Assembly (NCBI RefSeq): GCF_900103715.1
Contig: NZ_FNHL01000007.1
Coordinates: 1-64,000 of the forward strand
Direction of reading: 5' to 3'
DNA: 64,000 nucleotides
From: Halogranum gelatinilyticum
GTDB taxonomy: Archaea > Halobacteriota > Halobacteria > Halobacteriales > Haloferacaceae
The position numbers and the translations under genes are program-made. Positions 54,345-56,623 of this stretch are shown here, in pieces. Under the pieces are notes generated by a model, which saw only the letters and a list, made by a program, of their open reading frames with translations, was not told the origin of the DNA and ran no database searches. Within the stretch, counting starts at the first letter, position 1. Every line of letters starts with the position of its first letter.

Positions 54345-54410
54345 CCGACGTGTGGTAGACGGTAGCTCATCTGGTGGTCCAGGCGAGTCGGTTCGATTCC
54401 GACGTGGGCG
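54345..54410 (+). other. Degenerate tRNA-like sequence
   Basis: A perfect T-arm (GTCGG / TTCGATT / CCGAC, 54387-54403) is followed by GTGGGCG, an acceptor-like strand. A D-arm-like TAGCTCATCTGGTGG is at 54363-54377. There is no anticodon arm between them and no matching 5' acceptor (CGCCCAC) upstream, so it is not a functional tRNA by this reading. It could be a decayed tRNA copy or an attachment remnant. Confidence 0.4.
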
Positions 54411-54448
54411 GTGACCCGACCGGGATTCGGTGCAGCCCCGTCTCGGGT

Positions 54449-54679
54449 ATGGAGCAACCAACACATGTTCGGCAGCAAGCCCTCAGAAAGCTGGACGACT
54501 CCGACGACTTCCCCGTGTGCCCGCTCGGAGGTGCGAGCATGAGCACACAGGACGGGAGCGAGTTCGCTGGCGCGCAATGCCCCGACTGTGGCAGCCCGTG
54601 CGTCAAGGCGACGCTCCTTCACTTCGGAAACACATGGAATCCGACTGAGTGCCGCGACTGTCACTGGACCCGAGACTGA
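54449..54679 (+). CDS. Small zinc-binding protein
   Basis: 76 residues from ATG 54449; an alternative ATG at 54539 (46 residues) has a GGAGGTG Shine-Dalgarno at 54529-54535. The C-terminal part has CPDCGSPC and CRDC, a likely zinc knuckle, with HFGNTWNP between. The upstream part has acidic, GC3-biased codons (LDDSDDFPVCPLGG), which argues for the longer start. The frame also stays open leftward to 54374 over the tRNA-like segment. Confidence 0.6.
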   Translation: MEQPTHVRQQALRKLDDSDDFPVCPLGGASMSTQDGSEFAGAQCPDCGSPCVKATLLHFGNTWNPTECRDCHWTRD

Positions 54680-54750
54680 GCGAAGACACCGACTGACCGA
54701 TTTTTTCGCGTCGCCGACACGGAGAGCGTGTCGCTCGGCGCGACGGCGGG

Positions 54751-55359
54751 TCAAATGAAGTGTGGCTTGAGCCGCCGGAGCGTCCGCTCGATGTGGTCGA
54801 TACCCTCCGTGATTCGCTCGGCTTCCTCACCCTCGTCGAACGGTCCCACGTACACGAACGCGTACACCGCCTCCATGAGCAGGTCTTCGACCGTCGCATC
54901 GTCGTGCGCCGTCGCGACCTGCTCGCACTTCTCTCGGAGATCGTCGGGAAGCCGGTCGTAGAGGTCCTGAAAGTTGCCGAGGAACCACCGGGTCGTCTCG
55001 CGGACGTCCGGGGTCTCGGTGCAGAGATGGTTGGCCACGGCGAAAGGCTCTCTGCCTGCGAAAAACGAGTGGAGCACTTCGTTTCGCTCGAACCGCGTCT
55101 CTCGTTCGAGCAGATCGAGTCCTCGCTGGAGTTTGGGGTGGAGCGTCACCAGTTTTCTGATCCGTCGATCCGACCGTCCAGGTGCCCGGGTCAGTGCCCG
55201 CGCGGCCTCCGAGAAATGCTGGAATACGGCCTCGCGCCGCTCCTCGGCGTCCAACTGCGATACGTCCTCGTCCTTCGCATGAAGCTGGAGTGCGTCCGCG
55301 ACGAAACGCAGTTTGACGACACTGATACCCTCCTGTCTGGGTGCGATAGGACGAGACAT
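54751..55359 (-). CDS. Unrecognised helical protein
   Basis: 202 residues from ATG 55359 (MSRPIAPRQEGISVV). Mostly helical, charged, with FFAGREPFAVANHLC and EEAERITEGIDHIERTLRRLKPHF at the end. A TATA-like element on the minus strand (55388-55395, ~30-36 bases upstream) fits a leaderless transcript. It is divergent from the 55504 gene and shares its TGGGACC-bearing promoter region. No family recognised. Confidence 0.7.
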   Translation of the reverse strand: MSRPIAPRQEGISVVKLRFVADALQLHAKDEDVSQLDAEERREAVFQHFSEAARALTRAPGRSDRRIRKLVTLHPKLQRGLDLLERETRFERNEVLHSFFAGREPFAVANHLCTETPDVRETTRWFLGNFQDLYDRLPDDLREKCEQVATAHDDATVEDLLMEAVYAFVYVGPFDEGEEAERITEGIDHIERTLRRLKPHFI

Positions 55360-55469
55360 GGTATCAAGATAGAGTAATCGTATGACATACATAAACCTTT
55401 GGCCGGTATGGTCACAGAGGGTTTCTCCATGGGACCGGCGCACCCACAGTGGGACCGATTACCATTGGG

Positions 55470-55477
55470 TTTAAATA
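55470..55477 (+). promoter_or_regulatory. TATA box of the 55504 gene
   Basis: TTTAAATA lies 27-34 bases upstream of ATG 55504, the spacing for a leaderless or near-leaderless transcript. A TGGGACC motif at 55450-55456 is 13 bases above it and another is at 55523-55529 just inside the gene, so regulators could bracket the promoter. Confidence 0.65.
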
Positions 55478-55503
55478 GGATGTGGTGCTGATGTTTACTC
55501 GTG

Positions 55504-55971
55504 ATGGCAGGTAAGACCCAATTGGGACCACGTGTCGAAGGTGATTTGGCAGACAAATACCGGAACTTCGTCCGGTTCGTCAACGATGGGACGTACAAGG
55601 GACGGTTGGGCGACGAGGTGGAGAAGGCACTCAAATACCAGATGGCCTTGTACTTCGTCCGTCATCCCGAAGAACTCGACCGGGCGGCCAACTCCGACTT
55701 CATCGAGGACGACGACTTCGTGAGCGACATGATGAGCCTCATCGACACGATGGGACCGCATATCGTCGCCGCGGCGGACAACCTGCGCCCGGACGACGAC
55801 TATCGCTCTGAGCCACCTCGCCGTGAACGGACCTACCAGCCGTCGGTCGACTCCATCCCCGCCAGCGAGCAGCTCCTCCGGTCGACAACGGCCGACAACG
55901 AGGACGACGTGATGCGACGCATCGAGCGTCTCGAGCGGCTGCTGGAAGAGAACCTCTCGGACGACACGTAG
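55504..55971 (+). CDS. Putative DNA-binding or plasmid-type protein, unrecognised
   Basis: 155 residues. The N-terminus AGKTQLGPRVEGDLADKYRNFVRFVND begins like a ribbon-helix-helix protein (strand then two helices); the middle is acidic and helical, and the C-terminus RRIERLERLLEENL is a short coiled coil suitable for dimerisation. GTG at 55501 is one codon earlier. The gene is surrounded by TGGGACC/GGTCCCA motifs, so it may bind them. RHH assignment is by pattern only. Confidence 0.65.
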   Translation: MAGKTQLGPRVEGDLADKYRNFVRFVNDGTYKGRLGDEVEKALKYQMALYFVRHPEELDRAANSDFIEDDDFVSDMMSLIDTMGPHIVAAADNLRPDDDYRSEPPRRERTYQPSVDSIPASEQLLRSTTADNEDDVMRRIERLERLLEENLSDDT

Positions 55972-56079
55972 TTCGACGACCGACTCGCCGCACCGACATC
56001 GCTTTCTTCGCCGTCGCGGACACTGCCGAGCGTCCGAGCCGGAGAGCCGACACAGTTTCCGACAGCACCCCGTTCAGTA

Positions 56080-56098
56080 TGGTCCCATAATAGGACCA
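56080..56098. promoter_or_regulatory. TGGTCC/GGACCA dyad
   Basis: Perfect 6-bp inverted repeat TGGTCC (56080-56085) and GGACCA (56093-56098), spacer CATAATA. It lies in the gap between the 55504 and 56254 genes, upstream of the TATA box at 56156. It is one of several GGTCCCA-type motifs in this intergenic region. Confidence 0.5.
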
Positions 56099-56125
56099 GA
56101 ATAGTGCATAACTAGCTCAAACCAC

Positions 56126-56141
56126 ATATTGGTCCCAATAT
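56126..56141. promoter_or_regulatory. ATATTGG-TC-CCAATAT dyad
   Basis: Perfect 7-bp arms around TC, containing GGTCCCA. It ends 15 bases upstream of the TATA-like TTTTATA at 56156-56162. Position upstream of a promoter is typical of an archaeal activator or repressor site. Confidence 0.5.
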
Positions 56142-56155
56142 GCGAAAGATTCAAG

Positions 56156-56162
56156 TTTTATA
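56156..56162 (+). promoter_or_regulatory. TATA-like box of the 56254 gene
   Basis: TTTTATA followed directly by AGTCCCA (56162-56168), an altered copy of the local motif. The start is ~90 bases downstream, so a leader with a Shine-Dalgarno GGAGGA at 56242-56247 (6 bases from ATG) is expected. Confidence 0.5.
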
Positions 56163-56253
56163 GTCCCAAACAAGCTCTTGTGAGCCAGGAGGTGTGGAGG
56201 CTCCAAGTGTGGTCCCAGCGTGTGACCAAACGCGCTAGAACGGAGGAGACAAC

Positions 56254-56550
56254 ATGACCGAACAACTCACCGCCCAGTGCCCGTGTGGAGAGACGATACA
56301 CATCACCGACCCCGACGACGGTCCCGAAGTGGAGGTGGACGTCGTCCTGTTCAACCGTAAGTTCAGGTTCGTGCCGAACGTCCACGCGATCCTGTCCGTG
56401 TCGGCGTTGGTCGTCATGGCGATGCTCATCTACACCGAGATGATTCACCACGGCGAGGCGAACCCGCTGACGCTGGCCGAGGTGGCTCATTTCGCCGGTT
56501 GGGTCTACCTCGAACTCCCCGAAGCCATCTTCATCGAGACGCTGGAGTGA
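56254..56550 (+). CDS. Small membrane-associated protein, unrecognised
   Basis: 98 residues. N-terminal CPCGE (Cys at 9 and 11) and an acidic strand region, one hydrophobic segment near 45-60 (ILSVSALVVMAMLIY), then an amphipathic tail (LAEVAHFAGWVYLELPEAIF). GGAGGA precedes the ATG. The promoter carries two dyads and further GGTCCCA motifs. No family recognised; likely co-regulated with the 55504 gene. Confidence 0.7.
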   Translation: MTEQLTAQCPCGETIHITDPDDGPEVEVDVVLFNRKFRFVPNVHAILSVSALVVMAMLIYTEMIHHGEANPLTLAEVAHFAGWVYLELPEAIFIETLE

Positions 56551-56623
56551 CGCGGGCGGCGCGAGACCGCGTCCACCCAGCCGTTCTAACGGTTTTATGG
56601 CCTCGACTGCCGACAGGACTGAC

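Follow-up and report, generated by a model that had tools for sequence, protein, structure and literature searches.

The locus raises the question of why one seven-letter word, TGGGACC (GGTCCCA on the other strand), recurs so densely around three unrecognised genes in a 64,000-nucleotide stretch of Halogranum gelatinilyticum DNA. This whole stretch is referred to here as the window. The original prediction, made from the letters alone, read the copies either as an autoregulated operator set or as iteron-like replication or partition sites, with the ribbon-helix-helix (RHH)-like product of the gene at 55504 as candidate binder. The operator half of that reading was supported by operator-like sites at promoters, an RHH-type protein B and relatives on plasmids, but the iteron and partition half was not supported in this genome. 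We consider it probable that the TGGGACC sites are operators of a plasmid-derived three-gene cassette that is autoregulated by B. The cassette and its genes are as follows.

54710-56580 (approximate extent), no strand: the cassette, comprising genes A, B and C and the putative operators; two same-genus genomes have about 110-130 bp there
54751-55359, minus strand: gene A, an ORF for a 202-aa protein, predicted all-helical, with a C-terminal Y-x-G-P motif
55504-55971, plus strand: gene B, for a 155-aa protein with an N-terminal RHH-type domain (residues about 4-53) and an acidic C-terminal part; the proposed repressor
56254-56550, plus strand: gene C, an ORF for a 98-aa protein with one predicted transmembrane helix (about residues 45-64)

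TGGGACC is clustered at a single locus

All seven exact copies were recovered where they had been predicted (55430, 55450, 55523, 55751, 56081, 56131 and 56211), as were the variant copies at 56092 and 56162, and the count of five intergenic copies among the seven held. This gives 7 copies in 788 bp, while 0.08 would be expected from the genome rate (379 copies in 3.77 Mb, or 1 per 10 kb). Across the window, enrichment is mild, with 14 copies against 9.25 in shuffles and 7 of 100 shuffles reaching 14. The anomaly is one of clustering rather than of window-wide abundance. Post hoc choice of the word does not explain the density, because no 7-mer reaches such counts in shuffled DNA. In an unbiased test of all 7-mers, none of 3000 dinucleotide shuffles of the region gave any 7-mer seven times, and none of 3000 shuffles of the two intergenic stretches gave any 7-mer five times.

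An intergenic scan for equal density elsewhere had been set beforehand as a refutation test. The background was a 484-kb sample of this genome in which a simple codon-usage script had been used to call genes, and equal density was not seen in it. There are five copies in 423 bp here, compared to 0.126 copies/kb elsewhere in the genome's intergenic DNA (P about 3e-9 by a naive Poisson calculation, meant for scale alone). No other intergenic region in the 484 kb approached this density, except for a tRNA-Pro end. The other triple cluster (contig C1:287808-288003) was examined and set aside, as it consists of the tRNA-Pro 3' end with partial copies. This 3' end and its two upstream partial copies (contig C1:287808-288040; L018:7808-8040; GTGGGACCGCCCGGAT) are suggestive of past integration events at that tRNA.

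The in-gene copies at 55523 and 55751 both fall on Gly-Pro codons, at conserved residues of B. They are weak evidence, since they may be a coding coincidence, and are not countable as operators on present data. Because these two sit on Gly-Pro codons, the five intergenic copies carry the case. When one mismatch was allowed to TGGGACCA, eleven sites were found in 891 bp. Six of these fall within the 282 bp that precede gene C, which is the top count among the sampled intergenic regions.

The sites lie at the putative promoters

Candidate sites gather at the inferred gene B and gene C promoters, and near gene A there is a weaker site; this bears out the operator-like character originally proposed. 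Promoter positions for all three genes were read from the sequence alone. The sites and promoter elements are listed below.

about 55391-55397, minus strand: TATA-like box of gene A
55409-55416, minus strand: one-mismatch site TGTGACCA, about 10 bp from the gene A TATA-like box; missed by the original prediction
55430-55436, plus strand: TGGGACC, upstream of the gene B promoter
55450-55456, plus strand: TGGGACC, 20 bp after the 55430 copy and 14 bp from the gene B TATA box
55470-55479, plus strand: putative gene B TATA box TTTAAATAGG, about 34 bp from the ATG
55523-55529, plus strand: TGGGACC in gene B, within conserved Leu-Gly-Pro codons
55751-55757, plus strand: TGGGACC in gene B, on Met-Gly-Pro codons
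56080-56098, no strand: 19-bp dyad 1, TGGTCCCATAATAGGACCA (TGGTCC-7-GGACCA)
56125-56142, no strand: perfect 18-bp dyad CATATTGG-TC-CCAATATG, upstream of the gene C TATA box
56157-56162, plus strand: gene C TATA box TTTATA, overlapped by a variant site
56161-56168, minus strand: variant site TGGGACTA, overlapping the gene C TATA box
56210-56228, no strand: 19-bp dyad 2, TGGTCCCAGCGTGTGACCA, in the expected leader of gene C; also missed earlier
56241-56247, plus strand: putative Shine-Dalgarno-like GGAGGAG in the expected gene C leader

An RHH autorepressor should have sites at its own promoter, and the 55430 and 55450 copies do stand upstream of the putative gene B TATA box (55470). The gene B mRNA is expected to be leaderless, given the short distance from this box to the ATG.

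Before gene C, the two perfect dyads that had been predicted both exist, but they do not flank a TATA box as claimed; both are upstream of the gene C TATA box (56157). Dyads 1 and 2 share one form and are 130 bp apart. The underlying pattern, TGGTCNCA-N6..8-GACCA, occurs at 3 places in the 3.77 Mb, two of which are dyads 1 and 2, and a reversed-pattern control occurs at 0 places in the genome. Two other dyad places were inspected as operators and rejected, as each falls within an unrelated coding sequence or right at its beginning. It is hardly credible that the clustering reflects chance or codon or compositional bias: Gly-Pro codons hold two of the seven copies and other codon-rich 7-mers attain similar counts in GC-rich genes, but the five intergenic copies are far above the genome's intergenic rate and are accompanied by three dyads.

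The cassette is inserted in the chromosome

The flanks of the 1.9-kb cassette, a zinc-ribbon gene on the left and an AI-2E-type transporter gene on the right, were compared by blastn to two genomes of the same genus (G437 and G449). In both, the flanking genes are neighbours and the cassette is absent. The cassette is read as having entered the chromosome because these two genomes do not have it at the site. It is a lineage-specific chromosomal insertion, and two losses would be a less simple account. The G+C content of the cassette is 0.601, compared to 0.664 for the window. No integrase and no clear target duplication were seen at its ends, and no close relatives carrying the cassette were found in the genomes searched.

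A separate observation concerns the tract at 54355-54450, upstream of the small zinc-ribbon gene (about 54465-54679). It contains the tRNA T-arm-like GTCGGTTCGATTCCGAC and is strongly conserved in the two same-genus genomes. ARAGORN and Rfam called no tRNA in it, and its folding energy was no better than that of shuffles. The tract is possibly a tRNA relic or a leader RNA.

Relatives of the cassette occur on plasmids

Relatives of the three genes had been anticipated on plasmids or viruses. Plasmid relatives were found, on pNG100 and a Haloplanus plasmid, but viral ones were not: IMG/VR scans with the B and C profiles returned nothing, and phage records held no match. Haloarcula marismortui plasmid pNG100 carries A, B and C in matching order and orientation. 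On a 53.6-kb contig of Halobaculum gomorrense (NZ_FQWV01000012), B, A and C adjoin orc1/cdc6, with A standing between B and C and B on the opposite strand. An RHH/PIN pair and a ParA-type ATPase are a few kb from this cassette, ParA-type genes being about 4 kb away. A Haloplanus aerogenes plasmid with orc1/cdc6 carries A and B, and a fragment of draft genome G471 has B beside a divergent gene in place of A; this gene showed no significant relation to A.

Two side observations were made at these loci. After gene B, the Haloplanus plasmid has two genes annotated as transcription factors (L009:6587-7857), the first of which matches the Pfam TBP (TATA-binding protein) model with E=2e-30. Between orc1/cdc6 and B of H. 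gomorrense (L003:1150-1290), there are repeated GGGGGTGCGTCC(A/G)ATGTAAA words that are origin-recognition-box-like.

Pfam, NCBIfam and PHROG searches with the A, B and C proteins gave no usable family. Kinship of the A proteins across loci is weak pairwise and visible by profile: a profile-profile match joined A to the pNG100 and H. gomorrense proteins (E=6e-6), and the pairwise comparison with Haloplanus A gave E=0.003. The structure model of A was of very low confidence. The C protein has 52-57% identity to its pNG100 and H. gomorrense copies (three loci) and carries a highly conserved HGEAxPLxxAExxHFAGWxYLELPE segment. Strong C matches were found in 3 of 394 sampled genomes, only in ones that also have B. 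A GTDB scan with C found H. gomorrense only, one with B alone found nothing, and C was found on pNG100 only among 148 further Haloarcula-family genomes.

The letters of the sites differ between loci, and neither the pNG100 nor the H. gomorrense cassette contains TGGGACC. H. gomorrense has instead a perfect 16-bp dyad, GACACATAAAGGTGTC, which is found between B and A, about 240 bp from the start of B, and again just upstream of C. It is found nowhere else in 28.6 kb of the contig, and the excess of words shared by the two promoter regions is significant (p<0.001). In pNG100, no clearly significant element was common to both promoters. The H. gomorrense arrangement is alike with other letters, as a co-evolving regulator would leave, and is a single case.

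Gene B encodes a protein with an RHH-type N-terminal sequence

The proposal that the 55504 product is RHH-like was corroborated by a profile match of its N-terminus to a solved 51-aa protein, PDB 2k6l (E=8e-6). The match was made with a 13-member profile and covers residues 2-45 of 2k6l with strand-helix-helix spacing. We take 2k6l to be a plasmid-encoded RHH protein of Xanthomonas. Curated RHH models (Pfam, NCBIfam) gave no significant match to B or the aligned members, a finding that bears on a supporting rather than a strictly defining criterion. PHROG 29021 (function unknown) matched 9 of the 13 aligned members, with a best E=1e-13.

An AlphaFold2 monomer of B, run with the Haloplanus sequence left out, was of low confidence (pTM 0.41) and had helices at 13-26 and 34-53 and no strand. 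A fold search with this model gave no match. The strand's absence from the model would neither support nor refute an RHH fold, because in an RHH protein the strand of one subunit pairs with that of the other.

A wide range of haloarchaeal proteins can be aligned to the first 50 residues of B, and the likeness is limited to that part. Loci L043-L051 represent a wide haloarchaeal family with an RHH-type N-terminus like that of B and very different C-terminal parts; the L051 protein has two RHH-type domains. This family matches PHROG 29021 and no Pfam model.

Autoregulation by B is the most probable explanation of the sites

We infer that B is the binder and that its binding represses. The cassette, which is inserted between two chromosomal genes, would have come from a haloarchaeal plasmid. 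Most likely, dimers of the RHH protein B recognise the 7-bp word and join in pairs across two sites: at the gene B promoter these would be the direct 20-bp repeat, and at that of gene C the 19-bp and 18-bp dyads. Lying over the TATA/BRE regions, B would repress gene B and gene C, and perhaps gene A as well. The best-supported mechanism would be autoregulation together with co-repression, through promoter occlusion. SvtR and F55, RHH regulators of archaeal viruses, each bind their own promoter and a few others, and regulators of this type work by promoter occlusion (PMC5569661). The gene C product is perhaps a membrane effector or a plasmid-maintenance function whose level has to be held down.

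Another possible explanation is that a host or unrelated regulator binds the sites and that the cassette belongs to a larger regulon. B as binder is a proposal; the putative binder could be another factor, a host protein included, and TGGGACC is present 379 times in the genome. However, sites in paired or dyad form are found almost nowhere but at this locus, and the related cassettes of other species use different letters, as a cassette-encoded binder would lead one to expect. Such a binder is favoured because H. gomorrense has its own repeated element in a like layout, and regulation from outside the cassette seems unlikely.

Alternatively, B could be a partition protein of the RHH ParB type and the sites its centromere or parS-like set, inherited from the parent plasmid and now idle or doubling as operators. 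Omega, an RHH protein, recognises 7-bp words at the promoters of copy-number and partition genes (PMC9499535). ParA-type genes are present near the H. gomorrense cassette, as noted above, and on the Haloplanus plasmid. However, the inserted cassette has three genes without parA or a recognisable ATPase, and its flanks are chromosomal genes. The parA of the Haloplanus plasmid, counted across the start of the record, lies about 15 kb from B and has another small gene as its neighbour, and no ParA family match was found among seven pNG100 proteins tested. Full activation of ParA by omega requires at least 4 contiguous heptads (PMC9499535), but exact neighbours here are 20 to 80 bp apart. Partition sites, which had been predicted as one option, are improbable for spaced copies in a chromosomal insertion that has no parA.

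RHH antitoxins autoregulate, and a toxin-antitoxin unit would make B the antitoxin, C a membrane toxin and the sites their operators. C is indeed a small membrane protein under a like type of sites. Against this, B and C are not in one operon, as a type II unit would be, but have separate putative promoters, and in H. gomorrense they are not neighbours. In addition, pNG100 carries the cassette, and a Haloarcula strain cured of this plasmid is viable (PMC6528647). We regard a toxin-antitoxin unit as quite doubtful.

The suggestion of iterons, or of origin elements left over from a plasmid replicon, fared worse and is very unlikely. Relatives do adjoin orc1/cdc6 in H. gomorrense and occur on plasmids with orc1/cdc6. 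However, no Rep or Orc1/Cdc6 initiator was found among the cassette genes and the neighbours tested, and the motif is missing from the pNG100 and H. gomorrense cassettes. Origin boxes of haloarchaea are described as elements with a G-string beside orc/cdc6 (PMC3528665), while the sites here are spaced rather than contiguous repeats and lie at promoters, not beside orc1/cdc6.

Autoregulation by B has a broader, more tentative extension. The unit may be an undescribed haloarchaeal plasmid maintenance or control cassette, made of an all-helical A, an RHH regulator B and a membrane protein C, with an operator word that changes rapidly per lineage and the ability to move to the chromosome. No study of the A-B-C cassette was found in the published literature. 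The cassette is apparently undescribed; its regulatory wiring is familiar in principle, the particulars are new, and the probable operators are well localised. Haloarchaeal plasmids are full of unnamed genes, and this cassette gains a testable wiring diagram of binder, operators and regulated genes. It also offers a natural case in which a regulator seems to have changed in step with its operator letters from one plasmid to another. Gene C, which encodes a strikingly conserved small membrane protein, is marked as a likely regulated output.

Comparison with known systems

CdrS of Halobacterium is a haloarchaeal RHH transcription factor (PMC7439475) and resembles B at the level of fold class. 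It is a 55-aa cell-division regulator of the core genome (PMC7439475), unlike the cassette-encoded, 155-aa B. The likeness of B to 2k6l is one of sequence profile over the strand-helix-helix; 2k6l itself is bacterial and single-domain. CopG-type plasmid copy-number repressors are plasmid-encoded RHH autorepressors that act at their own promoter. In contrast, the B cassette has no downstream rep gene, and its sites are at three promoters instead of one. CopG-type repressors are named in the same review as SvtR and F55 (PMC5569661).

Omega, the RHH-ParB protein of pSM19035, binds 7-bp words in direct and inverted orientation at several plasmid gene promoters including its own (PMC9499535), as proposed here for B. 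At each site it has 7-10 contiguous heptads, which act together with ParA (PMC9499535), whereas the cassette sites are spaced and parA is absent. From SvtR of SIRV1 and F55 of SSV1, B differs in its extra acidic C-terminal half, in the words of its sites and in the haloarchaeal plasmid origin of its cassette, and no direct sequence relation was detected. Like B, however, both are RHH proteins of mobile elements with short repeated sites at their own and a few other promoters (PMC5569661), and their promoter occlusion near the TATA/BRE (PMC5569661) is the mode of action that we propose for B.
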